Assembly: GCF_023074835.1 (NCBI RefSeq)
Contig: NZ_JALLGW010000001.1
Location: forward strand, 1,922,001-1,986,000
Length of the DNA stretch: 64,000 nucleotides
Origin: Halomarina salina
GTDB lineage: Archaea; Halobacteriota; Halobacteria; Halobacteriales; Haloarculaceae
Direction: 5' to 3'
This document shows, in pieces, positions 48,520 to 64,000 of the stretch. The notes under the pieces were generated by a model that saw nothing but the letters and a program-made list of their open reading frames with translations, had not been told where the DNA came from and did no database searches. The translations under genes and the position numbers were made by a program. How positions within the stretch are numbered: the first letter of the stretch is position 1; every line of letters begins with the position of its first letter.

Positions 48520-48528
48520 GTTCACAAA

Positions 48529-48786: not shown

Positions 48787-48841
48787 CTACTCCTTACCCG
48801 TCCGGGGGCGACATGGACCGTTCGCGTGCCTCGCCTGAGAG

Positions 48842-50226: not shown

Positions 50227-50364
50227 TCAGAAGTTGTCGCCGAGACGATATCGAACAAAGACGTAGTCCTCGTGTCGTGGTGGGCGCTGGTGCGGTAGGG
50301 GTGGCAGGTGCGGATGGGCGTGTTCGTCCATTGCATCGGCCTCGCGAGCGCCCGCGGAGGAGTC

Positions 50365-50595: not shown

Positions 50596-50858
50596 CACAA
50601 CTAATTGACTTATCGACGGGTGCAACGGGGTTGGGGTGCTCGTAGAAGAGCAATAGGGCGCTGGCAGACTCGATGCTCTGGGGGCTGCAATATCGCCTCC
50701 ATCCGACTCGTGCAATCACGCTTGTCGAACATGTAATTCGGGCGTCCTGCGTGTCGCCCGTGGGAACAAAATCGACGAGGATGCAGCAGGACATATCCAG
50801 ATTCCGAACGTCGGGTACGGCCTTCGACTTCGACCTCGACGAGGGAGCGGACGGTCAC
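50585..50858 (-). pseudogene. Probably frameshifted ORF following the tiny membrane genes
   Basis: A GTG at 50858 overlaps the preceding stop as GTGA and opens MTVRSLVEVEVEGRTRRSES, with good third-position GC. That signal then moves between frames: ILVDFVPTGDTQDA in the frame starting at 50794, NYMFDKRDCTSRMEAILQPPE in the first frame, then IESASALLLFYEHPNPVAPVDKS again in the second. Either two overlapping short genes (50610-50858 and 50585-50794) exist, or one gene has several frameshifts. The latter fits better with the codon bias. Confidence 0.4.
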
Positions 50859-51031
50859 CGCTGAGCCCCCGCGTGGAGGTCGCCCAGCGCCACGCCAATG
50901 ACGAAGATAGCGAGAAGGCTCACACTGACGACGACCGTGGTCGGCACTGCGCCGTTCGCGAGCTCCGTCGCACCGTAGGCGAGTATTAGTTCACCCGCGC
51001 CGAAGGCAACGGTCGTCCGAACGAGACTCAT
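50855..51031 (-). CDS. 58-residue membrane protein B of a tiny-gene operon
   Basis: A short protein with an N-terminal amphipathic or membrane segment (TTVAFGAGELILAYGATELA) and a clear helix (VPTTVVVSVSLLAIFVIGVALG). Its ATG (51029-51031) overlaps the stop of protein A as ATGA, and its own stop overlaps the next GTG as GTGA. The overlaps and codon bias support coding. Strings of tiny overlapping membrane genes are common in haloarchaeal viruses and proviruses. No family is recognised. Confidence 0.6.
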   Translation of the reverse strand: MSLVRTTVAFGAGELILAYGATELANGAVPTTVVVSVSLLAIFVIGVALGDLHAGAQR

Positions 51032-51195
51032 CGGGTGGGGCGAAGGGCGCTAGCGACGAAGAAGACGAGGGGTGCGGCGAGGATGAGCGCGAGCATCCCG
51101 CCGTCGTAGCCGCCGACCGCGTAGGCGGTGGTGACGGCGAGAGCGAACGCGAGGAGGCCGGTCGGGATGGCGAGGGTCTCGCGGGTGACGCTCAT
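51028..51195 (-). CDS. 55-residue membrane protein A of a tiny-gene operon
   Basis: Two hydrophobic segments (LAIPTGLLAFALAVTTAYAV and GGMLALILAAPLVFFVASAL) separated by GGYDG. The ATG is at 51193-51195. Nearly every codon ends in C or G, in contrast with the AT-richer DNA around it. It is the first of the three-gene overlap chain A-B-C. Function unknown. Confidence 0.6.
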   Translation of the reverse strand: MSVTRETLAIPTGLLAFALAVTTAYAVGGYDGGMLALILAAPLVFFVASALRPTR

Positions 51196-51318
51196 GGGTG
51201 CGTGTCAGTCGGTGGCTCGCATAGTGGTTGGGGTCAGCCGCCAGAGGTAGCTGAAGTTTTCACTCGACGCGAGGGGTGGTGGGTCGCGTTCGGCGACTCT
51301 ATAAAAATGGGCAACACA

Positions 51319-51328
51319 TTTAGTATAG
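51319..51328 (+). promoter_or_regulatory. TATA box of the 41-residue membrane peptide gene
   Basis: TTTAGTATAG lies 21-30 nt before ATG 51349, a spacing expected for a leaderless haloarchaeal transcript. An additional TATAAAAAT block at 51300-51308 may serve another start or the opposite strand. Confidence 0.5.
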
Positions 51329-51348
51329 AGTAATTCTCGTGTTAGTAT

Positions 51349-51474
51349 ATGTTGGCTCTGCAATCGGCGGGGTTTTTCGACGCGATAGCGTGGGCGCTCA
51401 CCAAGGGATTCTGGGGGGTCGTTCTCGCGGTCCTGGTCTTCGGTGGTATCTGGCTGTGGAACAACCCGACGTGA
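51349..51474 (+). CDS. 41-residue membrane peptide
   Basis: A micro-gene encoding one strongly hydrophobic, Trp-rich helix (AIAWALTKGFWGVVLAVLVFGGIWLWN). The well-placed TATA box and the TGA after 41 codons support expression. It is divergent from the A-B-C tiny-gene operon. Single-helix peptides of this size occur in haloviruses and in toxin-like systems; no assignment can be made. Confidence 0.5.
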   Translation: MLALQSAGFFDAIAWALTKGFWGVVLAVLVFGGIWLWNNPT

Positions 51475-51577
51475 TTGCCGTGGAGCTGGTGAGTACTCGT
51501 CTGTATCGCGGCTGCGACAGTTTCACTTCCAGTGGGCACATTGCGACCCTTTTTGTCGATTCCCAGTAACTCTGGGT

Positions 51578-52156
51578 ATGCGGAATCGTCTGGAGACGGT
51601 CGTACTCGGCATCATAGGGAGCATCATCACATATTTCATTCTCCCGTTCCTTCCCACGACCCCTACTGCTGTTGACTTCCTTCAGTACGGGAACGACCCT
51701 CGGGTTCGGTTTGTCTTGTTTCTCGCCGTGGTTTGGTACGGTCTCTGGCGTGGCCTCGATGCATTTCGGAACCGACGAGCAGCGAAGAAGCGTGGCTCTG
51801 GCGTCTATACGTTCAATATGGGGCAGCGAGAAATCAGATTCGTCGACTGGTCGGGCGTCAGACGGCACTTCGGCGTGGACTGGGAGGTGACGTACGGGTC
51901 GACAATGATTGGTAAGGACTCGATGGCTCGCGTCGATGGTCCGTATTGCCCCGAGTGTGGGACGGAGCTGATGAAACACGAACAAGAGCGTTACATCCAG
52001 TGGAACCGAAAGATGTGGAAATGCCCCGGCTGTGGCTTCAAGCACGCGCGGCCCAAGGAGTTCCTCTACGAGGAGCGAGAGGCGGTGGCCAAGGTCGTTG
52101 AGCGTGACCAGGAGGTAGAGACGAACCGACTTGATGACCTCGCCCCCCCGAGCTGA
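51578..52156 (+). CDS. Membrane protein with C-terminal zinc ribbon
   Basis: A 192-residue protein. Two transmembrane helices (about 7-24 and 41-57) are followed by a cytoplasmic domain. It ends in a zinc ribbon with Cys pairs YCPECGTEL and KCPGCGFKH separated by about 25 residues. A helical acidic tail completes it. ATG 51578 (MRNRLETVVLGIIGS) is chosen because a CCTTTTTGTCG box lies about 30 nt before it. The family is not recognised. Confidence 0.75.
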   Translation: MRNRLETVVLGIIGSIITYFILPFLPTTPTAVDFLQYGNDPRVRFVLFLAVVWYGLWRGLDAFRNRRAAKKRGSGVYTFNMGQREIRFVDWSGVRRHFGVDWEVTYGSTMIGKDSMARVDGPYCPECGTELMKHEQERYIQWNRKMWKCPGCGFKHARPKEFLYEEREAVAKVVERDQEVETNRLDDLAPPS

Positions 52157-52266
52157 ACGAGAACGAGGGGTGACCGTCTCGGACCGTGGTCAGCGGGCAC
52201 CCCACCGTTGAGCTCTCGCCGACTACGAGGGAGACGTTTTTATCGATTCTTCACCCTGGTGTGGGT

Positions 52267-52845
52267 ATGACTGTTGATGGATATGACACCTATATTCCCG
52301 AATTCACTCCAAACGAAGAGGCTCCGGACGCATCGTTTATCCGAGGTAACCTCTCGAAGCGGTTTGATAGGATTGACCGAATGGCTGCGGAGTACAGCGA
52401 GCTATCTGATGCGTTCTTCGACGGCGAACAGACAGTCACAGAGGTGGAAACATCGAAAGTGTTAGAGCTGCAGAATGGGTTGGATGATGAGCTCCGACTG
52501 TTCTTCGTAATCGCGAACGCGACGTTCAATTTCAACTGCGCCTCTATCGCCTACCAGTATCTCGTTCGGCCAGAGCTTCGGACGGGGGCGCTTCTGGAGT
52601 TATTTTTAGAAGAGGTTCCACAAGACGCACTGGAGCAGATGTTGGTTCGGACGGGGTTACTCGGAACAACGTTGGTCGGACACATGTCCAATATTCAAGG
52701 GAAGCGGGCGATGTTCTCTCATGACGTAGTTGTTACCTCGGATTGGGAGGGGACGTTGCGTCCGTGGGCGTCCCGTACGTTGCGTATCAACGAAGCATTG
52801 TACGACTTCAATCCACGCGAGAGTATCGAAGGGGAGATGGAGTGA
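52267..52845 (+). CDS. Hypothetical soluble helical protein
   Basis: A 192-residue protein, mostly helical by composition (FDRIDRMAAEYSELSDAFFDGEQTVTEVETSKVLELQNGLDDELRLFFVIANATFNFN... TGALLELFLEEVPQDALEQMLVRTGLLGTTLVGHM). No motif or membrane segment is clear. A TTTTTATCG box about 30 nt upstream of ATG 52267 supports this start. It follows the zinc-ribbon membrane gene by 110 bp. Function unknown. Confidence 0.7.
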   Translation: MTVDGYDTYIPEFTPNEEAPDASFIRGNLSKRFDRIDRMAAEYSELSDAFFDGEQTVTEVETSKVLELQNGLDDELRLFFVIANATFNFNCASIAYQYLVRPELRTGALLELFLEEVPQDALEQMLVRTGLLGTTLVGHMSNIQGKRAMFSHDVVVTSDWEGTLRPWASRTLRINEALYDFNPRESIEGEME

Positions 52846-53057
52846 GCGAGGTGGTCTCTCTATCGTAGCTCCGCTGTTCCACCAGTCTACCTCAGCTGAC
52901 TCAGATACACCACGTAACGCCAGTACGTCACTACCGTCATCACAGCCACCGTAGTTCACCATGCCAGCGACGATATCCCAACGCGCGCGTTGGTTCACAA
53001 ACGTGAAACGCTCCTTCCGGACGCCGTGCCCAGGGCGTTGCATCGATTGCCGGTACT

Positions 53058-53082
53058 GATAGACGTAGAGCGTGAGTCTATC
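53058..53082 (-). repeat. Hairpin module class I, minus orientation
   Basis: Perfect arms GATAGAC/GTCTATC with an 11-nt loop; flanking bases extend the stem to 9 bp (53056-53084). On the minus strand the loop reads TCACGCTCTAC. It begins 8 bp downstream of the stop of the minus-strand membrane gene (53091-53606) and is in the sense orientation of that gene. Confidence 0.85.
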
Positions 53083-53090
53083 AGAGGCTA

Positions 53091-53606
53091 TCACTCCTCT
53101 TGCAACGGGATACTGTGGTCTCTCAATACGCGTTTGCCCGTTTCGAACTGCTGTTGGGCTCCGAATCCATGCATATCCATGTACACCTGCCTGACCTGTG
53201 ATTCATCATCGTACACGATGCGAAAGCGGGGACTCCTGATGCCCTTCGCGGACCGTATCGAGACGTAATTCACTCTCTCTAACTCGATTGGCGTCTCAAG
53301 GGTGAACGTCGACTGGTAGAGGTTAAATCCCGCGATTGCCACGACTGGAACGCCAATGATAATCAGATTCCGAACCGCTCGCTCCCGGTTGACCAAGTAG
53401 ATGCCGGGGTCGACAATGAGCCCTATCAGCGTCGAGACCACGATGAAGAGGGCGCTCACGCAGAGCGTGGCGACGATGAGTTTGTGCTGTCGGTAGTGGC
53501 GTCTGAGCGGTTTGAGGCGTTGCGTCTCGAAGTGAAGCGCTCCGTTCTCGACCCACAGGTAGCCATTTCGATAGTGGAACCCCGACTGTGATTCGCGGTC
53601 TGGCAT
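53091..53606 (-). CDS. Two-helix membrane protein with PH-like C-terminal part
   Basis: A 171-residue protein. A soluble N-terminus (HYRNGYLWVENGALHFETQRLKPLRRHYR) resembles the strand of a small beta domain; helices lie at about 43-66 (LIVATLCVSALFIVVSTLIGLIV) and 82-98 (NLIIIGVPVVAIAGFNL). The C-terminus (PIELERVNYVSIRSAKGIRSPRFRIVYDD... VYMDMHGFGAQQQFETGKRVLRDHSIPL) looks like a PH/GRAM-like barrel. A membrane sensor or scaffold is possible, but this is only inference. A hairpin module follows its stop. Confidence 0.7.
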   Translation of the reverse strand: MPDRESQSGFHYRNGYLWVENGALHFETQRLKPLRRHYRQHKLIVATLCVSALFIVVSTLIGLIVDPGIYLVNRERAVRNLIIIGVPVVAIAGFNLYQSTFTLETPIELERVNYVSIRSAKGIRSPRFRIVYDDESQVRQVYMDMHGFGAQQQFETGKRVLRDHSIPLQEE

Positions 53607-53694
53607 CTGTTGTGTATCGTCGCACGCCTGTTCAAGAAATAATATCTCGCATTAGAGAGACCGTGCCAGCGACGGTCAGTACCACGAAGGAGGT

Positions 53695-53719
53695 GATACA
53701 CACGCGGCACAAGTCTATC
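53695..53719 (-). repeat. Hairpin module class II, minus orientation
   Basis: Arms GATACAC and GTCTATC (one C-C mismatch) around the 11-nt loop ACGCGGCACAA, which on the minus strand is TTGTGCCGCGT. It lies between the divergent membrane gene (ends of its promoter region) and the recombinase gene at 53813. A weak minus-strand hydrophobic frame (53632-53730) overlaps it. Confidence 0.7.
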
Positions 53720-53777
53720 AGTTGAATCAGCGAATATCGGGCGAAATTAACGCATGGACTGGTGCGGACGCGGGCCC

Positions 53778-53786
53778 ATATGATTT
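53778..53786 (+). promoter_or_regulatory. Candidate TATA box of the recombinase gene
   Basis: ATATGATTT, centred about 31 nt before ATG 53813, is the only well-spaced AT-rich box. It supports the ATG start in preference to the TTG at 53798. Confidence 0.45.
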
Positions 53787-53812
53787 GATTCGAGACATTG
53801 TTCGAAGCAATC

Positions 53813-54655
53813 ATGACGGTCCGCCCAACGCGTCTGGGTGCGATGTCTCAGCCCCATCGCGGAGGCCCGGTCCCTCCGTACGACGGTGCAGAGCGTACAG
53901 ACCACGTGACCGAAGCTCCCTCGACAGCCCGCTCGGGCCGTGAGTTCTGGCGTGACCACCTGACCGGCACTGCCTCGACAACCACCTCGAAGGAGGACGC
54001 GCTCACCGACCGCCAGTTCCAGTTACTGTTGGAGGGAGCGCGTCGCCTCGACGACCCGTTCGCGCGGCAGGCGCGGTTCGTCATCTTCGCGACTGGTCGG
54101 TTGGGGATGCGAGCGGGCGAAGTCACCCATATGACCGCCGAGTGGATTGACTGGCGCGAGAAGACGATTCACGTTCCCTCGTTCGACCGCTGTACGAAGG
54201 GCCGTGGTGGCAATGGCCCCTGTGGATACTGCCGCGAGCAGGCTCAGTCGATAGCGGCCAACAACGAGGACATCACCGTCGAGCAGGCACTGTCGACGCG
54301 CTGGGCTCCGAAGACGGCCGCCGGAGCGCGGGCGATACCGTTCGACTTCGAGACGCGTGTCGAGATGACCGTTGAACGATTCTTCGAAGCATATGACACG
54401 TATCCGCACTCGTGTGCGAGCATCAACCGCCGGGTGAATCGCGCCGCGGAGGCAGCCGATGACCTCGACAGCCAGCGGGTTTACCCCCATGGTCTCCGCG
54501 CGACCGCGAGTACGTTCCACGCGGCGCGGGGACTCACCGGATTACCGCTCCAGTCGTTCATGGGCTGGGAGAAGCTCGCCACCGCCGAGACCTACCTCAA
54601 CGGAACGACCGAAGCGACCCGCCGCGCCCTCCGCTCGGTTCACTCCTCGCGGTAG
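53813..54655 (+). CDS. Tyrosine recombinase (site-specific integrase)
   Basis: A 280-residue protein. Catalytic residues are in order: the first Arg in GRLGMRAGEVTHM (about residue 105), the HxxR box HGLRATASTF (near 227) and the Tyr in GWEKLATAETYLNGT (near 262). A Cys-rich insertion DRCTKGRGGNGPCGYCREQ after the first Arg is typical of a haloarchaeal integrase group and may bind zinc. The family cuts and joins DNA through a 3'-phosphotyrosine. It marks this region as mobile or formerly mobile. No attachment site next to it is evident. Confidence 0.9.
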   Translation: MTVRPTRLGAMSQPHRGGPVPPYDGAERTDHVTEAPSTARSGREFWRDHLTGTASTTTSKEDALTDRQFQLLLEGARRLDDPFARQARFVIFATGRLGMRAGEVTHMTAEWIDWREKTIHVPSFDRCTKGRGGNGPCGYCREQAQSIAANNEDITVEQALSTRWAPKTAAGARAIPFDFETRVEMTVERFFEAYDTYPHSCASINRRVNRAAEAADDLDSQRVYPHGLRATASTFHAARGLTGLPLQSFMGWEKLATAETYLNGTTEATRRALRSVHSSR

Positions 54656-54695
54656 CTCCCACGCTTTATTCCGCCGAAAGTTGCGCGATTCAACT

Positions 54696-54720
54696 GATTG
54701 ACTCGTGCCGCGAGTGTATC
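54696..54720 (+). repeat. Hairpin module class II
   Basis: Arms GATTGAC and GTGTATC around loop TCGTGCCGCGA; two flanking pairs (CT/AG) lengthen the stem. It lies between the convergent recombinase (stop 54655) and the small protein ending at 54719; the right arm overlaps that gene's stop codon. Confidence 0.65.
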
Positions 54721-54895
54721 AGTCTCGATTCCGCTTGACGCGGAGTATCTCCACATCGTAGCCTCCTCCGTGCGGAGTCGTGACTGCATATCCTCCTTCC
54801 ACATTGACTCCATTACGTTCAGCGGCGTTGATGAGACTGCTCAGTTTGTCGTGCAACGCCGCCTCGCTGTCGATGGATTCTGTCGGTTCGGACAT
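54719..54895 (-). CDS. Small protein family member 1 (58 residues)
   Basis: The protein has the pattern EAALHDKLSSLINAAERNGVNVEGGYAV... GGGYDVEILRV. Two other proteins in this region (55313-55483 and 59551-59724) share the same order: an aL...l...A..nGvdVeG core and a terminal YDv strand. So the three are paralogues. The predicted structure is one amphipathic helix followed by two or three strands. There is no zinc site or membrane segment. ATG at 54893-54895. Function unknown. Its stop overlaps a hairpin module. Confidence 0.75.
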   Translation of the reverse strand: MSEPTESIDSEAALHDKLSSLINAAERNGVNVEGGYAVTTPHGGGYDVEILRVKRNRD

Positions 54896-55240
54896 AGGCT
54901 GGCTTTGAACGAGTGGTCGACGAGTCAGAAACACGTTTCAACGAATCCGGCGTTCTCGGCGGCGTGCTACGGTGTGAATGAACGCTCCGCACTCGTTCCC
55001 GCCTGTATGCACACTTGAAATAAATAAAAATATGGCATGGTCAGTCATGCCACGACAGCAAACGGGGGGATGGGAGCCACGCCCACCTGCATGACATGGG
55101 GGCAGTGGGCATAATCGGAGCTAACGTGCTACTGACACTTGCCCCCATTCGGGTATGGCCGTGAGTGTATGTAAATCTGCGCTACTCCCGTCTTCGAGGA
55201 CTCTACCCCATCACTGAAGATACCGCCCCGATACCGTAGT
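54896..55240. other. 345-bp intergenic region with palindromes
   Basis: An AT-rich block (AAATAAATAAAAATATGG, 55018-55035) is followed by a palindrome TGGCATG-GTCAGT-CATGCCA (55033-55052). A 9-bp inverted repeat ATGGGGGCA (55096-55104) with TGCCCCCAT (55140-55148) spans a 22-codon frame (MGAVGIIGANVLLTLAPIRV...) that starts at its left arm. I cannot decide whether that frame is expressed. No other gene is seen. Confidence 0.4.
55033..55052. repeat. Palindrome GGCATG-GTCAGT-CATGCC, copy 1
   Basis: A 7-bp perfect stem with a 6-nt loop, directly after an AT-rich TATA-like block. A diverged copy GGCGTG-GTCATC-CATGCC is at 55543-55560, 500 bp away. Possible operator pair or small mobile palindrome. 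Confidence 0.5.
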
Positions 55241-55303
55241 GATATTCTCTCCCGCTCGCTCTCTCGAACGGACCGTTGGATAGAGCTGTGCCGTGGGTGT
55301 ACC
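55241..55303 (+). repeat. Composite hairpin element (class I + 13 nt + class II), decayed
   Basis: Class I part 55241-55265 (arms GATATTC and CTCTCTC, loop TCTCCCGCTCG), a 13-nt spacer GAACGGACCGTTG, and class II part 55279-55303 (arms GATAGAG and GTGTACC, loop CTGTGCCGTGG). Stem pairing is weak, but module length, loop words and spacing match the other composite at 56276-56338. It ends 9 bp before the stop of the minus-strand small protein 2. Confidence 0.6.
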
Positions 55304-55312
55304 AGTGGGGAA

Positions 55313-55483
55313 CTACCGACGCACTGGATTCACCTGTACATCGTAGAGCGACCGGTGAGTCGTCGTCTCGCACTCATAGGACCCGGCGACATCGATGCCG
55401 TTCTTCTCGGCTTCGTCTAAGAGGTCGGTCAAACGCGTTCGAAGCCCGTCTTGGTCGTGGATTGGCTGTGAATCGTCGGTCAT
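55313..55483 (-). CDS. Small protein family member 2 (56 residues)
   Basis: A paralogue of the proteins at 54719-54895 and 59551-59724: DGLRTRLTDLLDEAEKNGIDVAGSYECE... YDVQVNPV. The N-terminus MTDDSQPIHDQ is polar. The ATG at 55481-55483 is supported by a CTAATACTG box about 33 nt upstream on the minus strand (55513-55521). A decayed composite hairpin element lies just downstream of the stop. Confidence 0.75.
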   Translation of the reverse strand: MTDDSQPIHDQDGLRTRLTDLLDEAEKNGIDVAGSYECETTTHRSLYDVQVNPVRR

Positions 55484-55542
55484 GCGTACCTCGGCGGACA
55501 CCCCGCTCGTCACAGTATTAGGGGGTAGCCAGTTAACACTGT

Positions 55543-55560
55543 GGCGTGGTCATCCATGCC
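55543..55560. repeat. Palindrome GGCGTG-GTCATC-CATGCC, copy 2
   Basis: Six-base arms with one G-T pair and the same 6-nt loop start (GTCA) as copy 1 at 55033-55052. It lies upstream of small protein 2, between it and the divergent Bat-type HTH remnant. Confidence 0.45.
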
Positions 55561-55655
55561 TTGATTCATCAGACTGTGACTCCCACTTTTAACCGCCATT
55601 GTATCAATCATAAAACAGACTCAAGTAGAACGGGCGATAAGGAAGTAGCGCCAGT

Positions 55656-55889
55656 ATGAGTGAAGACTATCCAAACGGGGTGCCGCTCACCCACCGAGAA
55701 CAGGAACTGCTTCAGACCGCACTGAATAGTGGATAATTCGAGGTCCCTCGCCGGACGAGCACGGTTGCACTCGCTGACGAGGTGGGGGCTTCCTCACGCG
55801 AGGTCTCCGAGCAACTCCATCAGGCCATGGGGAAGGTCCTCCGGCATTCGAACTGGACTGTATCATCCTCCGTCACTGGGAACGAATGA
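55656..55889 (+). pseudogene. Bat-type HTH gene interrupted by an in-frame TAA
   Basis: From ATG 55656 the frame reads MSEDYPNGVPLTHREQELLQ, TALNSG, then TAA (55734-55736), then FEVPRRTSTVALADEVGASS, REVSEQLHQAMGKVL and a short tail before TGA 55887-55889. This is the HTH_10 domain of bacterio-opsin-activator-like regulators, whose consensus here is GYFEVPR. The TAA stands exactly where TAC or TAT for Tyr is expected. So a single base change has truncated a 77-residue stand-alone HTH protein. Readthrough cannot be excluded. Confidence 0.75.
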
Positions 55890-55901
55890 GAACAACTGAC
55901 T

Positions 55902-55951
55902 GAGGGACCCACGCACTGGGTCTCTCGTCGGACTCGTGCTACGTGTGTATC
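55902..55951 (+). repeat. Composite hairpin element (class I directly followed by class II)
   Basis: Class I 55902-55926: arms GAGGGAC and GTCTCTC pair fully (one G-T), with loop CCACGCACTGG; its third stem pair is G-C where most copies have T-A, a compensated change. Class II 55927-55951: arms GTCGGAC and GTGTATC (weak), loop TCGTGCTACGT. Total 50 bp with no spacer. It begins 12 bp after the stop of the interrupted HTH gene, in sense orientation. Confidence 0.75.
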
Positions 55952-56275
55952 GCGTCAAACGTATCGAGTTGCCGGATGCTATCGAGAGTTGGACACTCAA
56001 TCTGTCATCCGAAATCAATAAATGCCGTCGGTATTGTACCAAAACGCGACGACGACACCCCAATCGGAATGAGGTTGTCAGAGGCACACTCCTGTGGGGA
56101 GTCTGTCGTCAGGAACTAATCGTTTCGAGTAACGGACAAGCATCCTCACACTCGCCACCTGTTGTCCGTTCCAACGAGTGTTCCTACCCACGGATTTGGG
56201 TCAGATACTCATAACGCTACCGACAAGTATAGGACTCGAACAGTATCTCCTAATTGTGTTGCTTTACTCAGGAGT
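55952..56275. other. 324-bp region without a gene
   Basis: Plus- and minus-strand frames here are rich in Arg, Cys and Ser with no third-position bias. They look non-coding. Nothing else is recognised except AT-rich patches near 56020 and 56255. Confidence 0.5.
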
Positions 56276-56338
56276 GATACACTCACGCTCAGTCTCTATC
56301 GAATAGGCCGAGTGAGCGACGTGTACCGCGAGTGTATC
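56276..56338 (+). repeat. Composite hairpin element (class I + 13 nt + class II)
   Basis: Class I 56276-56300 (GATACAC ... CTCTATC, loop TCACGCTCAGT), spacer GAATAGGCCGAGT, class II 56314-56338 (GAGCGAC ... GTGTATC, loop GTGTACCGCGA). The outer ends GATACAC and GTGTATC are perfect complements of each other, although the inner stems are imperfect. Confidence 0.75.
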
Positions 56339-56698
56339 GCCTGCAAATTCTACTTTCGATGGAATTTCATGTCGTCTTACTCTCAACGCAATCCTCAGTG
56401 TAGATTTGTCTAACAGTACTTTCCGTGAAACTATCGGACACAATTATGCAGATTCCCCCACAACCGTTACTTGGGTGCCTCGTTCGGATGCGGGAGGATG
56501 GGGACGAGGAATGCTGGAAGAGACTCCCAACGTGCTCCGGGCGAGTGGCCTAACGCGGGGACAGTGCCTCTGACAGCCTTTTCCCCCGTTTCCGCACGTA
56601 ATCGAGATGCCTGCAACGAGTATCAAGGCTCTCCCCAAATACTCGGGTATGACGTGGCTTCTCAACCCAATCTGGCGCAGCTTCGAGTACATGGGTCT
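56339..56698. other. 360-bp region without a convincing gene
   Basis: Short frames exist, for example from ATG 56608 (MPATSIKALPKYSGMTWLLN...) running into the next hairpin element, but they lack codon bias and a recognisable family. Nothing else is seen. Confidence 0.45.
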
Positions 56699-56757
56699 GA
56701 TAGACTCACGCTCTCTGTCTATCGAACGGACAAGCGAGAGTTGGTTGTGTGTCTATC
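56699..56757 (+). repeat. Hairpin module class I with diverged class II tail
   Basis: Class I 56699-56723 is perfect (GATAGAC / GTCTATC, loop TCACGCTCTCT). It is followed by GAACGGACAAGCGAGAG and ends in a further GTCTATC (56751-56757), a longer and altered second module. It precedes the lipoprotein gene at 56813. Confidence 0.8.
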
Positions 56758-56812
56758 GGGATGTCTGCGAATCTCCCGAACAATAATGTTTTTGTAGAAA
56801 TGTTTTCAACTC

Positions 56813-57373
56813 ATGGTCCCTGCCCGCTCTCGCTCTCTCATCCTCTTGGTCGCCTGTGTAGTCCTGTTAGCAGGTTGCACAGGGTTCGGAGGGACGCCGT
56901 CACCAACCACATCGACGACAGCGTCCGCTATCAGTGCCGAAACCACATCGTTCGCCTTCGACCCAGCCTATGCGAGTGATGAACAGGGGGAGCCCGACTA
57001 CTTCGAACATCCGGCAGATTCCCGGGAAGCTGTTCAGGTCAGGTGGTCAGACGACCACCTCATCGTCTCGGGGGCCACTATCGGTATCGGCGACCAGAAC
57101 TGCATCGACGTACAACTCATAGAGGCGCGAGCAGTGAACGCGACCGCGCTCAGCGTCGTCATCGAAAACGATGCAGTCGTCCCATCGGACAAAAGCGGGT
57201 GTAATGGGTCTGCAGCCCCCTACGAATACCGGGCGAACATCAGTATCTCGGGGAACTCTCCCGAGCAGGTGATTGTGACGCATCGAGCTGGTGGAACTGG
57301 AGAGACACAGTTCGAGACGGTCGTTCGGCGGGCGCAGAACGGAACCGTCATCCCGTCGATTCAGGACCCCTGA
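56813..57373 (+). CDS. Lipoprotein of unknown function
   Basis: A 186-residue protein. The signal ends in a lipobox VVLLAGC (Cys 21), followed by a Thr/Ser/Pro linker. Residues about 45-180 are beta-rich (EAVQVRWSDDHLIVSGATIGIGDQNCIDVQLIEARAVNATALSVVIEND... YRANISISGNSPEQVIVTHRAGG), with two Cys (105 and 139) that may form a disulfide. An AT-rich AATAATGTTTTTGTAG at 56781-56796 is the probable promoter. Predicted to be membrane-anchored on the outside. Confidence 0.8.
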   Translation: MVPARSRSLILLVACVVLLAGCTGFGGTPSPTTSTTASAISAETTSFAFDPAYASDEQGEPDYFEHPADSREAVQVRWSDDHLIVSGATIGIGDQNCIDVQLIEARAVNATALSVVIENDAVVPSDKSGCNGSAAPYEYRANISISGNSPEQVIVTHRAGGTGETQFETVVRRAQNGTVIPSIQDP

Positions 57374-57418
57374 ACCGATACGGCCCCGCTCACCACGACG
57401 GAACCTACTCTTGGAGAT

Positions 57419-57443
57419 GAAACACTCACGCTCTGGGTCAACC
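57419..57443 (+). repeat. Hairpin module class I, decayed stem
   Basis: GAAACAC, loop TCACGCTCTGG, GTCAACC: the loop is intact but only three of seven stem pairs remain. It lies 46 bp after the lipoprotein stop, in sense orientation. Confidence 0.6.
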
Positions 57444-57521
57444 GATTGCCAGAACGGTGGGACGTACGCTCCATGCATTCTGAGCTCTGAGACATTACAG
57501 TCTCGGCTTCGGGGTGCCCTG

Positions 57522-57830
57522 TCACAGTGGTGGTTCCGATGCCGTGATGATGATTCGCTCCGGCGTGACACCGACATTATAGTCACAGTACTCGAACCAC
57601 ACAGAAACGGAGGTCGCTCCCGAAGTACTATCGTCCATTAGCAAGGCGTCAAGTGCCCCCGGGTCAACCGCCTCGTACAGCGGCTCGGGGAGTTTTCGTG
57701 GGTCACACTCCATGACTTCTGCTAGTGCATTGACGACAGCGATGCTCCTTGGTACATCTCGGTCCACCTCGAATACTGCGCGGTTGGGCTGTTCCGAATC
57801 GTCGTGTGGTGTCAACTCACTCTCGGCCAT
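57522..57830 (-). CDS. HalOD1 output-domain protein
   Basis: A 102-residue protein. SIAVVNALAEVMECDPRKLPEPLYEAVDPGALDALL followed by VSVWFEYCDYNVGVTPERIII is the haloarchaeal HalOD1 domain, found in proteins thought to act downstream of two-component or light-sensing signalling. The N-terminal 30 residues are acidic. ATG 57828-57830 (MAESELTPHDDSEQPN) is chosen because the frame further upstream is not family-like. Its neighbour on the same strand is a DUF7344 regulator, a frequent pairing. Confidence 0.85.
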   Translation of the reverse strand: MAESELTPHDDSEQPNRAVFEVDRDVPRSIAVVNALAEVMECDPRKLPEPLYEAVDPGALDALLMDDSTSGATSVSVWFEYCDYNVGVTPERIIITASEPPL

Positions 57831-58275
57831 CGACGGGCCCCCACGCTCCGACGCATCGTCGCGCGACGGTGTCGCTGAGTGTAGTCGACTCGCACTGGAA
57901 TACTGTTGAACTGAAAGACGCTCGTGCCTCTGACATAATTTTTCTGAACGAGTAGCCGTGGTACAGGGACAGTTCTCAGAGAAGTCGGTCTCCACAGGGG
58001 GATGTCACGGTCGGCAGGAACCGACGGTGAGTCGTTCGTATCGTGTACCCGCAGCCCCACGGATAGCTGTTATCGTTAGCCTCACCGGCCTCTATCCCCT
58101 CTTCAAGACCGACAGGAGCACTGGAGTGTACTAGGGTAGCGATTGACTCCCCTCGGGGACGACCTCACAGTGAGTGCGGTCGTGAACGATGCAACGAGAG
58201 ACTGGCTATCAGCCATAGCCCACCCTCTGAGTCGTTCGTTCAGTCGAATCGACGGAGTGGTCAGTCGGCTGAAAG
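57831..58275. other. 445-bp intergenic region
   Basis: No gene is seen. A perfect hairpin GGCTAT-CAGCC-ATAGCC (58204-58220) lies 56 bp downstream of the DUF7344 gene and could end its transcript. A short CCCCTC-GGGG palindrome lies near 58150. AT-rich CATAATTTTTCTGA at 57934-57947 may belong to the HalOD1 promoter. Confidence 0.4.
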
Positions 58276-58596
58276 TTAGAGGAGCGGGTCGAGGTCATCG
58301 ATGTGGTCACCTGTCGTGACACGCTCGTTCTCGAAATCGAACTCGACGACATCGGCGTCGGCGAGCTTCGGCAGGTCCCGATGGAGCAGAGCAACGACGA
58401 CGCGTTTCTGGTGCTCCTCGCCGACGTCACTGGGTTGGATGTCTGATTCACGGGCAACGAGTTCAGTCGCGAGGCTGCTGACATCCCACTCCTCGCTCTG
58501 ATTCAACAGGAGGCGGAGTGTCTCGCGACGAAGCTCCTCGGCCACGAGGTCGTATGCCTCGTCCTTCGAGAGGTCATCGGGTGTCCACTCATTCAT
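58276..58596 (-). CDS. DUF7344-type winged-helix regulator
   Basis: A 106-residue protein with a winged-helix pattern: DEAYDLVAEELRRETLRLLLNQSEEWDVSSLATELVARESD, then EEHQKRVVVALLHRDLPKLADADVVEFDFENERVTTGDHIDDLDPLL. The helix-wing phrase VVVALLHRDLPKLADADVVEFD is characteristic of the haloarchaeal DUF7344 group of small transcription factors. The ATG is at 58594-58596. It shares strand with the HalOD1 gene 445 bp away. Confidence 0.85.
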   Translation of the reverse strand: MNEWTPDDLSKDEAYDLVAEELRRETLRLLLNQSEEWDVSSLATELVARESDIQPSDVGEEHQKRVVVALLHRDLPKLADADVVEFDFENERVTTGDHIDDLDPLL

Positions 58597-58657
58597 ATCT
58601 GAACATACTTGCTGCTGAACTGGTAGGACTTGGGGCCGCTGCCGCAAGGGACTGACT

Positions 58658-58682
58658 GATAGACTTACGCTCTAGATGTTTC
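58658..58682 (+). repeat. Hairpin module class I, decayed right arm
   Basis: GATAGAC, loop TTACGCTCTAG, ATGTTTC, followed by GAACGG as in other copies. Only four stem pairs remain. It lies upstream of the DUF7344 gene, on the opposite strand, and before the Bat-type gene. Confidence 0.6.
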
Positions 58683-58824
58683 GAACGGTCCGAAGGAAGG
58701 GATAGATAGCATAAGTGGCTATTAAGTCACGATTCTCGAATAATTCGGTTGCAGACTGCCGGTACTTTTATTCTAAATCACATCTTCGACCCTGATATAC
58801 AATGGTGGTCTGTCAGGGGTGTTT

Positions 58825-59547
58825 ATGCTGATGATTGTCGAGTTCACGATTGACCAGCCCACGCTTCTCCAGTCGTTGCGACAGGTACCGTCGACTCGTA
58901 TCACGTGGGAGCAGACCGATACGACGGCCAACGACGAACGACTCATGCTGTTCTGGGCCGAGTCCGACGATTACGACGCCTTCGAGACAGCGATGTACCA
59001 CGACTCAACCGTGACTGCCCCTCGAACGCTTACGAGGTTCAGCGACAGGCGGTTGTATCAGGTCGAACAGGTCGGTGAGGGTGTCGCGCAGTCCATCTAT
59101 CCGACAACCGTGGAGGCCGGAGGAATCATCCAGCAGGGGACGGCGACATACGCGGGCTGGTGGTTTCAGGTCGCCTTCCCCGACAACGACGCGCTCAGGC
59201 ACGTACACGAGACCTGCACGGAACACGACCTCGACTTCTCTCTCGAACGCAAGTACGAGCTCGCCACCGAAGATACCCCTGCAACCAGCTATGGACTCAC
59301 CGAGAAACAACGCGATATGCTCATCCACGCCGTCCAGCAGGGGTACTACGACGTCCCACGGGCGACGTCCCTCGACTGCATCGCAGACGAGCAGGACATC
59401 TCCCACCAAGCCGCCTCGGAACGCCTCCGACGAGCAATCGACGTTCTAGCGCGAAACACGATTGTGACCAGTCGCGAACAGACCGACCAGTCGGCAAAGA
59501 TGGGGAAGGGAGACGAGGCTGGTGATGATAGCCGATGGGCGAACTGA
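58825..59547 (+). CDS. Bat-type (HTH_10) transcriptional regulator
   Basis: A 240-residue protein. Residues 1-155 are the N-terminal sensory-like domain of the bacterio-opsin activator family (MIVEFTIDQPTLLQSLRQVP... WWFQVAFPDNDALRHVHETCTEHDLDFSLERKYEL). Residues 160-215 are HTH_10: GLTEKQRDMLIHAVQQGYYDVPRATSLDCIADEQDISHQAASERLRRAIDVLARN. The start is ATG 58825 or 58831; the upstream GTG is less likely. The stand-alone interrupted HTH at 55656 is a relative. Target genes unknown. Confidence 0.88.
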   Translation: MLMIVEFTIDQPTLLQSLRQVPSTRITWEQTDTTANDERLMLFWAESDDYDAFETAMYHDSTVTAPRTLTRFSDRRLYQVEQVGEGVAQSIYPTTVEAGGIIQQGTATYAGWWFQVAFPDNDALRHVHETCTEHDLDFSLERKYELATEDTPATSYGLTEKQRDMLIHAVQQGYYDVPRATSLDCIADEQDISHQAASERLRRAIDVLARNTIVTSREQTDQSAKMGKGDEAGDDSRWAN

Positions 59548-59550
59548 CGC

Positions 59551-59724
59551 TTACGCTGGCGTGACTGCAGAGACGAGGAGTTCGTAGTCCATCGGCGTCT
59601 CGGTGTCTCGACAGGTCCACGCTCCTTCGACATCGACGCCATGGTGGTGTGCTGACTCAATGATAGCGGCGAACTGGTCGACCAACGCTGCTTCAGTCGT
59701 GATGGGGAGATGTGATTCGTCCAT
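59551..59724 (-). CDS. Small protein family member 3 (57 residues)
   Basis: A paralogue of the proteins at 54719-54895 and 55313-55483: EAALVDQFAAIIESAHHHGVDVEGAWTCR... MDYELLVSAV. ATG 59722-59724 aligns with the other two starts; a further ATG 13 codons upstream would add unrelated residues. It is convergent with the Bat-type gene, with 3 bp between stops. Function unknown. Confidence 0.75.
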   Translation of the reverse strand: MDESHLPITTEAALVDQFAAIIESAHHHGVDVEGAWTCRDTETPMDYELLVSAVTPA

Positions 59725-60193
59725 TCGTTGTAGCTGTGACACCAACGTACTCTCGCCCGCCAACTATGCGATTTTCTGCGCGACGGAAGAACGCCCGCAG
59801 TTGTCTGCATCTCTAGCAACGCCGCTCGGACGAATAGGGACACCGCCTGCGCTGGCAGGACGGTACTGACGGGGGAGAAGGTGGAGATAGCCTCTGACAC
59901 TGCCCGGTCCCCATATTCGTAATAACGTGACAGACACAATAGAATTTTGCCTGCGAATCAATACCGCTCGCCGATTGTGAGCGCCGCGAGTCCACACGGA
60001 GGTAAGTCGACCACTGCTGGCGATACACTCAATAGAGTATGGTTATTGGTACCGGCTGACTCGACGACCGTTCACAGGGTGGAACTGGTCACCTCAGCTG
60101 ACGTGGCAAGACGTGACGAGTCAGACCCCGAGACACTGGCACAGGACGAACAGTTCTGTTAGATGTCGATGAGGTACGAATCGCACGTGTCGA
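59725..60193. other. 469-bp region without a convincing gene
   Basis: A frame ending at 60162 contains VWLLVPADSTTVHRVELVTS and a polar tail, which could be a gene remnant, but no start or family is evident. A half-module GATACACTC occurs at 60022-60030. A promoter for the MazG-like gene is not obvious. Confidence 0.4.
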
Positions 60194-60218
60194 GTTAGAC
60201 CCGTGCTGCGAGTGTATC
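60194..60218 (+). repeat. Hairpin module class II
   Basis: GTTAGAC, loop CCGTGCTGCGA, GTGTATC; five of seven pairs. It lies about 70 bp upstream of the MazG-like gene. Confidence 0.6.
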
Positions 60219-60290
60219 AGCGACACACCGAAACGGAGGCTCTCTCGTCAAACCAGTAGTGCTTCGGGAGAGCCCGCGGTTTCTCAGACC

Positions 60291-60605
60291 ATGGCAGACG
60301 AATACGACAAGCTGGTTCGAGACGACATCCCAGAGATAATCGAAGCGAACGGTGAACGCCCCGTTGTTCACCACGTTGAGGGCGAAGAGTACACACAACG
60401 GCTGCTCGACAAATTAGACGAAGAAGTCGGCGAGTACCGGTCGGACCAGACCGTCGAGGAGTTGGCCGATGTACTCGAAGTTGTCCATGCGCTCTGTGAG
60501 ACCCACGGCGTTGACTGGAGTGAACTCCAACACCAACGAGAACAGAAAGCCGACCGACGGGGACACTTCAAGAACGGAGTCATGCTTGAGCGCGTCGAGA
60601 GATAG
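60291..60605 (+). CDS. MazG-like nucleotide pyrophosphohydrolase
   Basis: A 104-residue protein: YDKLVRDDIPEIIEANGERPVVHHVEGEEYTQRLLDKLDEEVGEYRSDQTVEELADVLEVVHALCETHG. The LDEEVGEY...EELADVLEV pattern is the ExxE...ExxD metal site of the all-alpha NTP pyrophosphatase superfamily (COG4997 type). It probably removes aberrant nucleotides or acts on phosphoribosyl-ATP-like molecules. Its TAG stop (60603-60605) lies inside a hairpin module. Length is typical. Confidence 0.88.
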   Translation: MADEYDKLVRDDIPEIIEANGERPVVHHVEGEEYTQRLLDKLDEEVGEYRSDQTVEELADVLEVVHALCETHGVDWSELQHQREQKADRRGHFKNGVMLERVER

Positions 60606-60621
60606 ACGCTCTCAGTGTATC
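60601..60621 (+). repeat. Hairpin module class I with shortened loop
   Basis: GATAGAC and GTGTATC arms (one G-G mismatch) with a 7-nt loop GCTCTCA in place of 11 nt. The left arm contains the TAG stop codon of the MazG-like gene. Confidence 0.7.
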
Positions 60622-60655
60622 GCTCATCTCGGACTGCTACTAATCATATATCGCA

Positions 60656-61330
60656 CTATCGGTGTTCTCTACCTCTGTCATTTGTCAGCCCGAGCATCTG
60701 TGCCGTTGGAAGTCTCCAGCCGTAGTTAACTGCGGCCAGACGTGTCCCAACGGTTACGACAGCACAGACCGCGACGGCGATACGTTCTGCCCCCATACCA
60801 GCTGTCACTATCCAATAGGCACTCCCACCCAGAACGGCACAACTCGCGTAGAAGTCCTCGAAGAGGATGAACGGCGGCCGGTCCAGTAGAATATCGGCGA
60901 CCGCGCCACCCCCGACCGCGTTAATCGTCGCAATCGCAACGACACCAACGGCCGAGACGCCACTGTCTGTTGCCACAATCGCGCCAGCCGTAGCGAACGC
61001 GGCGAGCCCCACCGCATCAGCAACGAGTGTGAACGGATGGTCCTCTGGAGACCCAAGTACCACACAGACTCCGAGTGCGACCCCCACACCGAGTGCTCCG
61101 AACCCGATTTCGCCCAATGACTGGAGGGCCAGCGGCACGCGATTCACGAGAAGGTCTCGCATCGTCCCCCCGGCGAACGCTGTGGCGAGTCCGACGACGA
61201 CGATTCCGAAGACATCGAAGTCCTCACGGATTGCCTTGGTCGCCCCGACCAGCGCAAACGCGACGAGACCGACTGCGTTCATCACAGTGAACGGGTCAAC
61301 GGGCAACACCCCGGTGAGGTCCTGAATCAC
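60656..61330 (-). CDS. TRIC / UPF0126 family cation channel
   Basis: A 224-residue protein with seven predicted helices. The two UPF0126 repeats show NAVGLVAFALVGATKAIREDFDVFGIVVVGLATAFAGGTMRDLLVNRVPL and ADAVGLAAFATAGAIVATDSGVSAVGVVAIATINAVGGGAVADILLDRPP, each with the conserved GGG-x-D/RD element. Prokaryotic members form trimeric cation channels. GTG 61328-61330 is the best start: it gives MIQDLTGVLPVDPFTVMNAVGL, as in haloarchaeal relatives. An internal ATG at 61280-61282 would cut helix 1. Confidence 0.88.
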   Translation of the reverse strand: MIQDLTGVLPVDPFTVMNAVGLVAFALVGATKAIREDFDVFGIVVVGLATAFAGGTMRDLLVNRVPLALQSLGEIGFGALGVGVALGVCVVLGSPEDHPFTLVADAVGLAAFATAGAIVATDSGVSAVGVVAIATINAVGGGAVADILLDRPPFILFEDFYASCAVLGGSAYWIVTAGMGAERIAVAVCAVVTVGTRLAAVNYGWRLPTAQMLGLTNDRGREHR

Positions 61331-61411
61331 TACGTCGACATATGGAATCGAGAGTATTGAGCCCACGGTATCGGCACACACCGATTGTGGCCCTCTGATA
61401 ACGAGAAAAAA

Positions 61412-61461
61412 GATAGACTCACGCTCTGGGTCTCTCGTTCGGTGGATGCCGCGTGTGTATC
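61412..61461 (+). repeat. Composite hairpin element (class I directly followed by class II)
   Basis: Class I 61412-61436 (GATAGAC / GTCTCTC, one mismatch, loop TCACGCTCTGG) abuts class II 61437-61461 (GTTCGGT / GTGTATC, loop GGATGCCGCGT). Exactly 50 bp, as at 55902-55951. It lies in the divergent spacer between the TRIC gene and the lipoprotein at 61517. Confidence 0.8.
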
Positions 61462-61516
61462 TGTATACGGTGGCCACCACCAGAAGGTACTTGTTCGCCA
61501 ATAGATACCACTTCGT

Positions 61517-61996
61517 ATGAAGCGCCGTGCCCTCCTCGGCCTCTCTGGGGCCGTACTCAGCGGTCTCGCAGGCTGTTCGACGGGAGCGACAGACAGTAGC
61601 GGAGCGCCGAAGCGGGTCGCCACCGGTCCTGCTGGTGGATGTCAGAGCAAAATCACGGCACAGCAGTATCCAGACCCCCCATCGACCCTCACTGAAGAAC
61701 GCGTCGTTGAGTTCGTGAAACGATACGAGCGGGCGCAAATTATCAATCAATCCGCAGGCGACCACGGCAGCCTGAGCGTCCGAATTACGGTTGAGTCCGT
61801 GAGCCAGACGGACGATGGCTGGCTGATTCAGCTTGGGGGCGGTATGTCACAGGAGGGCTGTGGCGACGGAAATTCGTACGTTTCCGACGGCATAGTTGCC
61901 GCTCACTACTTCGTCAACGAAACTGCCGTCTATCGGGCCGATACGTTCGCCGAAACCGCTGGTGACCCGCGGCAGAACGGAACGAAAGTCGCGTAG
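61517..61996 (+). CDS. Tat-type lipoprotein of unknown function
   Basis: A 159-residue protein: MKRRALLGLSGAVLSGLAGC has a twin Arg and a lipobox Cys at 20. The mature part is beta-rich (LSVRITVESVSQTDDGWLIQLGGGMSQEGCGDGNSYVSDGIVAAHYFVNETAVYRADTF), with Cys 42 and 114 possibly disulfide-bonded. It resembles the lipoprotein at 56813 only in general type. A perfect hairpin module follows its stop by 17 bp. Confidence 0.8.
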   Translation: MKRRALLGLSGAVLSGLAGCSTGATDSSGAPKRVATGPAGGCQSKITAQQYPDPPSTLTEERVVEFVKRYERAQIINQSAGDHGSLSVRITVESVSQTDDGWLIQLGGGMSQEGCGDGNSYVSDGIVAAHYFVNETAVYRADTFAETAGDPRQNGTKVA

Positions 61997-62016
61997 ATTC
62001 TGTGCGCCCTCGAATT

Positions 62017-62041
62017 GATAGACCCACGCTCTCTGTCTATC
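62017..62041 (+). repeat. Hairpin module class I, perfect 10-bp stem
   Basis: GATAGAC / GTCTATC with loop CCACGCTCTCT; flanking ATT/AAT extend the perfect stem to 10 bp (62014-62044). It is in sense orientation behind the lipoprotein gene. Confidence 0.9.
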
Positions 62042-62179
62042 AATATGCAGGCCCCAGTCGGCGCACTCTCTGCTTCGCGTCGCTCTTGAACCACTGACAG
62101 CTACGAGCAACCGCGCGGGGAGACTGTGACTATTATGTATTCACACAAGAGTTATACAAAGATAGCAGATTCGTGAGAT

Positions 62180-62671
62180 ATGGAACGACGCACGGTATCG
62201 ATTGTCCTCCTCCTCCTGAGTTTGCCACTGTTCGCAGCCCCTGCAATGTTACCGGTCGAAGACGTTCGAATGCACGACACCACATCCTACCTCGGAGAGA
62301 ACGCCACCGTTACTGACAGCCCCGCTGTCCGGGTCGTCGCCTACGAAAATCTCAGCACCCACGCCCAAGACCTGTACCGGCAAACCCTCGAACACGATGG
62401 CACGTACAGAGTGGCCATCGATGACGGAGCCAGCGATTACAGGTACTACAATGGCAACGGCCAGTTCAAATCACTCGTGATTGAGCGTCCAGCGAACAGT
62501 ACACTGCCACCCGCAGATGAGTCCTATCACCCGCAGTACGAACTCATGACCACATCCACCGTCCGCCCACCACTGTTCTCCGGCGCGTACGTCCCCCAGA
62601 TGATGCTGCTCTTCCTCGCCATCTGTTCGCTTCTCAGCGGGCTGTACCTGTTCTTCAACGACCACGCGTAG
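62180..62671 (+). CDS. Two-helix membrane protein with extracytoplasmic domain
   Basis: A 163-residue protein. An uncleaved signal-like helix (RRTVSIVLLLLSLPLFAAPAML) starts it and a second helix (VPQMMLLFLAICSLLSGLYLFF) ends it. Between them is a polar domain, including NATVTDSPAVRVVAYENLSTHAQDLYRQTLEHDGTYRVAIDDGASDYRYY, with glycosylation-type sequons. Such small proteins with a DLY-x-x-TL-x-x-GTY pattern are common in haloarchaea; role unknown. A hairpin module follows 16 bp after the stop. Confidence 0.75.
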   Translation: MERRTVSIVLLLLSLPLFAAPAMLPVEDVRMHDTTSYLGENATVTDSPAVRVVAYENLSTHAQDLYRQTLEHDGTYRVAIDDGASDYRYYNGNGQFKSLVIERPANSTLPPADESYHPQYELMTTSTVRPPLFSGAYVPQMMLLFLAICSLLSGLYLFFNDHA

Positions 62672-62687
62672 TCACCCGTCGGTATCT

Positions 62688-62712
62688 GATACACCTACGC
62701 TCTGCGTGTATC
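62688..62712 (+). repeat. Hairpin module class I, compensated stem
   Basis: GATACAC / GTGTATC, perfect 7-bp stem, loop CTACGCTCTGC. Relative to GATAGAC / GTCTATC the fifth pair is C-G for G-C, so both arms changed together. It follows the membrane gene in sense orientation and is followed by GAACGG. Confidence 0.9.
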
Positions 62713-62819
62713 GAACGGCTGAGCGAGAGAATCGACTGCCGAACCGAGCGTACCTCCCACTCAAAGACGTGACTCACCCCTATCAAGGGTTATACCCACC
62801 GACCTCTACTCTCTTCGAC

Positions 62820-64000
62820 ATGAACGATAGCGACGACAATTCGCTCGCTCCCGACTCAGAGACGGGCGCACCACTTCGACTGGAGGTGAAGCCGACGTAC
62901 TCGAACGTGGTCGGGCGGAATGACGCACGCGTCGGCCCTGACGTGATACAAGTCCTCGAACTCAGTCCGGGTGATTGTGTCGAACTCGCGGGCGACAGGA
63001 CGACTGTGGCCACGGTGTGGCGCACTGATGTCGACGACTGGGGCACCGGGACGGTCCTGCTCGACGAGTTTACCCGCGAGAACGCAGGCGTCAGCGTCGG
63101 TGAGACAATTGACGTTCGACCCGCCATCGTCAGCGATGCGACGTCGCTCACCGTTCAGTCCTCGACGGACCGTCCAATATCGTTCGATTCCTCCGAGATG
63201 AATCGGGTCAGGGACGGCCTGTCGTACCGCGTCCTCACGGAGGAGGATATCGTCTCGATTCGAGATGCTTCGGGGTCGGCAGCTTCTCCCTCCCACCCGT
63301 GGGCGGTTCGTGTCCACACCACCGACCCACGCGGTCCGGTCCGTGTGACGCCTGAGACGACTATCGAGTTTCAGGACCCTCAGTCGGATACTGACCGCGC
63401 GACAGTTCCCGACTCGGGGACGGACGACGCGGTCCGACTCCCGGTGAGAGAGATGTACGAGGGGAGCGTGGGAAACAACGCTGCCTGCATTGGGCATAGC
63501 GTAATGGAGCTTCCACCCTACCATCAGAACAACCGTGCAGACCAGACGCTGTACGTCAGACCGGGCGACTACGTCGAACTCACCGGCGAGAACACGACCG
63601 TTGCGCGGGTCTCACCCACCGATAAAGCAGACTGGGATACTGAAACCATTCTTCTCGACGAGTTTACCCGTGAGAACGCGGGCGTCGCTATCGATGACAC
63701 GGTCGTGGTTCGGCCAGCAACCGTCGAGGACGCCACCTCGATAACCGTTCACTCCTCGACGGACCGTCCGGTGTCGTTCGATGAGGAGACCGTGGCGGTG
63801 GTCGGAGAGCGCCTGTACAAGTGGGTCCTTGTGGAAGGAGACATCGTCCCACTACCGGGCACGGACGGCCCAGTGCCGGTCTCCGAGGCCAGTGCGGTGC
63901 GGGTCGTCGACACCGACCCAGCCGGACCGGTCCGTGTGACCTCAGTGACTGACATCGAGATGCAGGACCCTCACTCGGGCGACTCATCCCACTACCGAAG
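62820..64000 (+). CDS. Protein with tandem Cdc48/VAT N-domains (3' end beyond window)
   Basis: The frame is open from ATG 62820 to the window end (393 residues seen). Residues 19-102 match the double-psi barrel of Cdc48/VAT N-domains (LRLEVKPTYSNVVGRNDARV... LELSPGDCVELAG... LLDEFTRENAGVSVGETIDVRPA). Residues 103-187 match the second N-subdomain (DRPISFD... GPVRVTPETTIEFQDP). The same set recurs at about 230-385 (RPGDYVELTGENTTVARV, LLDEFTRENAGVAIDDTVVVRPA, GPVRVTSVTDIEMQDP). No AAA domain is seen yet; whether one follows cannot be told. Confidence 0.8.
   Translation, partial: MNDSDDNSLAPDSETGAPLRLEVKPTYSNVVGRNDARVGPDVIQVLELSPGDCVELAGDRTTVATVWRTDVDDWGTGTVLLDEFTRENAGVSVGETIDVRPAIVSDATSLTVQSSTDRPISFDSSEMNRVRDGLSYRVLTEEDIVSIRDASGSAASPSHPWAVRVHTTDPRGPVRVTPETTIEFQDPQSDTDRATVPDSGTDDAVRLPVREMYEGSVGNNAACIGHSVMELPPYHQNNRADQTLYVRPGDYVELTGENTTVARVSPTDKADWDTETILLDEFTRENAGVAIDDTVVVRPATVEDATSITVHSSTDRPVSFDEETVAVVGERLYKWVLVEGDIVPLPGTDGPVPVSEASAVRVVDTDPAGPVRVTSVTDIEMQDPHSGDSSHYR

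Follow-up and report, generated by a model that had tools for sequence, protein, structure and literature searches.

A tandem Cdc48-type N-domain protein without an ATPase, carried on an integrated element in a haloarchaeal-type genome

The protein P0001 is, with near certainty, a motor-free tandem Cdc48-type N-domain protein. It arose by internal duplication, has been kept by selection and travels as the cargo of a mobile element. The fuller account proposed here adds that it acts in trans as a decoy; we put the probability of that whole account at about 40%. The gene lies at the edge of the window, meaning the 64,000-nt stretch of DNA analyzed here (contig C1, 1922001–1986000, of a 4.46-Mb haloarchaeal-type genome). 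The initial annotation described it at 62820–64000 on the + strand. Its start, an ATG at 62820, stands; its end lies further on, since the open frame, read together with the sequence beyond the window, runs to a stop at window-equivalent 64020–64022 (L002:821–2023 in the numbering of a locus that extends past the window), such that the window ends 22 nt before the gene does. The whole is one gene of 400 aa, with no ATPase.

P0001 consists of two complete Cdc48 N-domain sets, with a short linker between them and a 15-residue basic tail at the end. Both sets had been proposed from the sequence and are real: CDC48_N (E = 2.6e-40) and CDC48_2 (E = 5.6e-15) each match twice in Pfam. The first set, delimited by Pfam and AlphaFold2, spans aa 17–188 (62868–63383, + strand), with CDC48_N at aa 20–102 and CDC48_2 at aa 122–188. 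The linker, aa 189–203 (63384–63428, + strand), is predicted to be flexible, with pLDDT below 50 at aa 189–201. The second set (N2), delimited by alignment and by a separate AlphaFold2 model, covers about aa 204–385 (63429–63974, + strand), and half-versus-half alignment shows that its barrel has 12 extra residues, ELPPYHQNNRAD, specific to N2. The basic tail, GDSSHYRRRRDYAY, begins at 63975, reaches the end of the window at 64000 and continues to 64019 on the + strand; it ends in Y-A-Y, which is not a match to HbYX, the motif for docking on the proteasome. The repeated words described in the initial annotation are present in both halves, LLDEFTRENAG at 63057–63089 and 63651–63683, and SSTDRP at 63159–63176 and 63753–63770. 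The repetition extends to the DNA, where both words fall inside a 227-nt direct repeat with a spacing of 594 and 72% identity.

AlphaFold2 was run with an alignment drawn from whole-genome loci only. The full-length model (pLDDT 73.9) orders the N-domain elements alike in both halves and leaves the linker disordered at aa 189–201; its pTM of 0.50 means that the mutual arrangement of the halves is not interpretable. In this model, residues 16–190 match MSMEG_0858 with Z = 15.8 (3.6 Å, 167 aligned) and p97-N with Z = 15.2 (2.7 Å, 146 aligned), and matches of the first half to these two proteins lie overall at Z 14–16. The second half, modeled alone (pLDDT 84.2, pTM 0.81), matches MSMEG_0858 with Z = 21.5 (3.9 Å, 176 aligned) and p97-N with Z = 19.5, or about 19 (2.0 Å, 155 aligned). 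Over the two halves, the VIA matches to p97-N/Cdc48-N span Z 15–21. VAT-N, under a profile that also takes in Cdc48 N-domains, ranks first in a sequence-profile search. Haloarchaeal Cdc48 N-domains have 32 conserved positions, and 22 of these are retained in each half; both halves lack parts of the GRG turn, and in both the invariant Pro near the subdomain junction has become Ser. Because the halves are without some conserved Cdc48 positions, their ligand may differ.

No AAA module follows P0001 in the 12 kb read onward, and the gene stops 15 codons past the second set. Nor is there an AAA remnant in the element that carries the gene: tblastn with the N-terminal 588 aa of the genome's own Cdc48a, a query that includes the first AAA module, matched just the two N sets. 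The AAA domain was thus tested for and is absent, which places P0001 outside the AAA family. Hence, of the two readings offered earlier, a double-N protein without an ATPase holds, while a new AAA layout is excluded by the sequence past 64000. Three full Cdc48 genes lie elsewhere in the host genome.

How does P0001 compare with known proteins? It resembles the Cdc48/VAT AAA ATPases (PF02359, PF02933 and AAA) in its N-domain, which in both sequence and model is a double-psi barrel plus a second subdomain. However, those proteins carry one or two AAA ATPase domains with Walker motifs, whereas P0001 has no AAA and its N set is doubled, with about 35% identity between these sets and the N-domains of the host Cdc48 proteins. 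The initial annotation started from one N-domain in proteins of this kind; that leaves out Pex1 and Pex6, in each of which two N-domains, homologous to the one in Cdc48, stand in tandem (PMC5070193, PMC10777020). P0001 shares the tandem arrangement with Pex1 and Pex6, but these are eukaryotic proteins with D1 and D2 ATPase domains, both of which P0001 lacks, and their N domains are far diverged from each other, whereas the two in P0001 are 54% identical. Tandem N-domains with an ATPase (Pex1/Pex6) and an ATPase-less relative (Ufd1) are already known; P0001 combines tandem N-domains with the lack of an ATPase. In the limited open-access literature searched, we found no description of an ATPase-less tandem-N protein or of N-only proteins on archaeal mobile elements.

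Judged by sequence comparison, P0001 is the product of an old internal duplication with both copies under constraint. The halves are identical at 97 of 178 residues and align with a score of 408, where 300 shuffles gave no more than 65; either half shares at most about 35% identity with any N-domain of the three host Cdc48 proteins. The third codon positions of the halves match in only 47% of cases. Between the halves, dN is about 0.39 and dS about 0.9–1.1, giving a dN/dS of about 0.36–0.42 which, coming from two halves of one gene, is an average over the time since duplication. A dN/dS of about 0.4 argues that both copies are constrained and, together with a dS near 1, that the duplication is old and selected rather than a mis-assembly. 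In a tree, the halves group as sisters (support 100/99). A plasmid sequence on a very long branch, P0003, also joins their group beside N1, with weak support and flagged as unsure by the tool.

These values also bear on two explanations that would deprive the gene of meaning. The initial annotation would have yielded to a demonstration that the gene is an ordinary Cdc48 with a mis-assembled duplicate of its 5′ part, for which nothing speaks beyond the general possibility of such artefacts. The halves differ at 46% of residues and at more than half of their third codon positions, the dS between them is near 1, their identity to the host Cdc48 proteins is low, and the gene sits within an element that is coherent and has att repeats; this case is therefore excluded for practical purposes. 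Alternatively, P0001 could be a decaying, functionless fragment of Cdc48. Such fragments do arise, since a plasmid of H. salinarum carries a cdc48 that is truncated, and the searches described below gave no P0001 orthologue, but the frame is intact across 400 codons, the halves have been constrained, the N sets have been duplicated and there is no AAA remnant; we therefore regard decay as very unlikely. The truncated H. salinarum gene (pKBTZ03_355, L041:3001–3850) is unannotated, lies behind an Hsp20 gene and is apparently cut just past the first Walker A region and joined to unrelated sequence.

The P0001 gene is cargo of a 28.3-kb element that is integrated in the 3′ end of secY and bounded by 34-nt repeats. 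The attL-like repeat at 48039–48072 (+ strand) comprises the last secY codons and the stop; its partner is at L072:2337–2370 (C1 1998337–1998370), with 3 mismatches, and the repeat restores the end of SecY. The left part of the element, 48073–64000, is in the window, and the element ends at C1 1998370. GC content is about 0.69 outside, falls to 0.55–0.64 from after secY and recovers 28 kb later. A 512-aa tyrosine integrase adjoins the right repeat at the element end (L072:754–2292, − strand). The assignment of the gene as cargo follows from the repeats at the secY end, this adjoining integrase and the drop in GC. A second tyrosine integrase/recombinase is encoded inside the element (53798–54655, + strand; Pfam PF00589, PHROG integrase), and the next gene after P0001, 66 nt away and convergent, encodes a serine recombinase (L002:2090–2761; Pfam Resolvase, 6e-31). 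The element also encodes a UvrD-like helicase and a primase-like protein, the latter related to proteins of haloarchaeal plasmids, of which several are small (11–24 kb). The UvrD-like and primase-like neighbors weakly match GajB and DRT models. Anti-phage defense was considered for P0001 and rejected: there is no PADLOC model for it, the neighbors' matches are weak, and the plasmid relatives of the primase point to a replication module. There is likewise no PHROG family for P0001.

A second double-N protein, for which the initial annotation had suggested searching, was not found at the level of order, class or phylum (391–392 genomes each). Among the candidates scored, whole-protein BLAST gave none at E ≤ 1e-31 in 392 genomes of the order; a tandem profile scored 597 bits for P0001, whereas elsewhere in 391 genomes of the class no score passed 286 bits, over one half only; and in 392 genomes of the phylum it gave only P0001 at E ≤ 1e-86. 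These searches scored some candidates per genome, so a very diverged double could escape. Peptide-pattern scans of genome contigs and viral contigs, and tblastn in phages, found no P0001 orthologue.

Single N sets without an AAA module are found in other haloarchaeal proteins (P0002, P0003, P0004 and those encoded at L017 and L074) and in an IMG/VR contig protein (L078:3956–4594), often on plasmids, islands or virus contigs. These are like P0001 in lacking the ATPase but differ in having a single set, with varied fusions, where P0001 has two. Four of 41 near-complete relatives, for which the listing is full, encode ATPase-less N proteins: the source genome, G004, G398 and G105. The protein of G004, a genome of the same genus, has 336 aa (L017:1516–2526, − strand), with an unknown N-terminal domain of ~165 aa followed by one N set and no ATPase. 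That of G398 has 255 aa (L074:5441–6208, − strand) and by Pfam consists of PF02359 followed by a C-terminal HNH domain (PF01844, 1.2e-6), and that of G105 has 178 aa and is encoded on a plasmid. More single-N proteins occur on Haladaptatus and Halobacterium plasmids. Two IMG/VR contigs (L078 and L079; 35 and 45 kb) share an identical stretch that encodes a 212-aa ATPase-less single-N protein, 41% identical to a haloarchaeal Cdc48a N-domain, with its gene just ahead of a dCMP deaminase. TerL (PF03354) was not found in these contigs, so their viral label rests on IMG/VR. In the tree, the single-N proteins form scattered long branches and no single family with confidence. A further genome, G031, has a weak, short N frame that could represent a frameshifted copy. 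The single-N protein of the G105 plasmid is the same as that encoded on Halorientalis pHOS100, where its gene overlaps a convergent gene for a type B DNA polymerase (PolB; L039:5965–8584), and on the Halobacterium plasmid pKBTZ03_58 a single-N gene is followed by a convergent recombinase gene (L040:2986–4234), an arrangement like that at L002:821–2761.

What might P0001 do? Both functions first suggested for it, adaptor and inhibitor, are plausible, and it plausibly works like a Cdc48 cofactor. We consider it probable that P0001 acts in trans on the Cdc48 pathway. More specifically, and tentatively, we propose a bivalent N-domain decoy that targets the Cdc48–SAMP–proteasome pathway in trans. 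P0001 would keep the ligand-binding head of Cdc48, for substrates, partner proteins and possibly SAMP-modified proteins, and would compete with the host's three Cdc48 proteins for N-domain ligands. With the head kept but no motor, ligands would be captured without being unfolded; captured ligands, or proteins of the element, would be shielded from unfolding and degradation, and the duplication would raise avidity for ligands with several binding sites. A decoy is suggested, first, by the models, in which each half resembles a Cdc48/p97 N-domain, together with the two Pfam N sets and no AAA. Second, the dN/dS between the halves indicates constraint on both copies. Third, the gene is on an integrated element, and its host has three full Cdc48 genes. 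Elements such as the plasmids and the virus-like contig that carry ATPase-less N proteins might benefit from interfering with proteolysis in the host. The N-terminal region of PAN is of another kind than that of Cdc48, making PAN an unlikely direct target. For archaeal VAT, removal of the N-domain increases activity, and this domain has been called regulatory, although its role is also given as unclear (PMC5423775). Haloferax Cdc48a associates with complexes of the ubiquitin-like SAMP1, and SAMP-linked degradation of TBP2 depends on Cdc48c (PMC10470531, PMC4895103). Cofactors of p97 bind its N-domain, and Ufd1–Npl4, a major p97 adaptor, does so as well (PMC5042407). Against a decoy, the searched genomes and viral contigs gave no orthologue that would attest conservation over long times, and P0001 has no recognized AAA-docking motif.

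By analogy with Ufd1 and p97, P0001 might instead be an adaptor, with one N set docking on the host Cdc48 ring or N-domains and the other holding a client for delivery to Cdc48 and the proteasome. The N-terminal part of Ufd1 has the same kind of bilobed N fold, and Ufd1 is, like P0001, an ATPase-less N-fold protein, known to act on Cdc48/p97 in trans. Giant-virus UFD1 models are among the matches in a structure search with the P0001 model. Two head domains would suit bridging, and the insertion found only in N2 suggests a divergence in role between the halves. However, Ufd1 has one N set, an SHP box and an Npl4 partner, whereas P0001 has two N sets, and by eye its 400 aa have no SHP box (F-x-G-x-G-like) and no recognized AAA-docking motif. 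We know of no archaeal docking motifs, nor of isolated N-domains that bind the Cdc48 ring stably. Pfam gives no match of P0001 to the Ufd1 domain PF03152 at E ≤ 1, although the folds are distant and sequence may miss kinship. The adaptor function is, in our estimate, rather unlikely.

We also rate as unlikely that P0001 is a repurposed binding module unrelated to Cdc48, serving the element, for example, as a regulator or as a partner of the recombinase, primase or helicase. Such a role would fit the variety of the single-N relatives (the HNH fusion at L074:5441–6208, the 165-aa domain at L017, the PolB neighbor at L039), the partial loss of conserved Cdc48 positions and the two cases in which an N gene adjoins a recombinase gene (L002 and L040). 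Against it, the N fold is well kept, and the two recombinases are just 29% identical, so the pairing may be chance.

A broader proposal, which we regard as speculative and somewhat improbable as it stands, is that mobile elements and viruses of archaea have on several occasions separated the Cdc48 N-domain from the ATPase and turn it, doubled in the present case, on the host unfoldase–SAMP–proteasome system, either as a weapon in trans or as an adaptor. This would then be the prokaryotic counterpart, encoded by parasites, of Ufd1 and of the tandem-N proteins Pex1 and Pex6. With P0001 and its single-N cousins, one could test for interference by archaeal parasites with the Cdc48–SAMP–proteasome pathway. 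As a natural motor-free bivalent N-domain, P0001 is also a ready-made bait for finding ligands of archaeal Cdc48 N-domains. These proteins show that prokaryotes use the Cdc48 N-domain as a free module, in one case fused to an HNH nuclease.

Upstream of the P0001 gene, a TATA-like TTATAC is read at 62790–62795 (+ strand), 25–30 nt ahead of the ATG at 62820, a placing that would fit, weakly, a leaderless haloarchaeal transcript.
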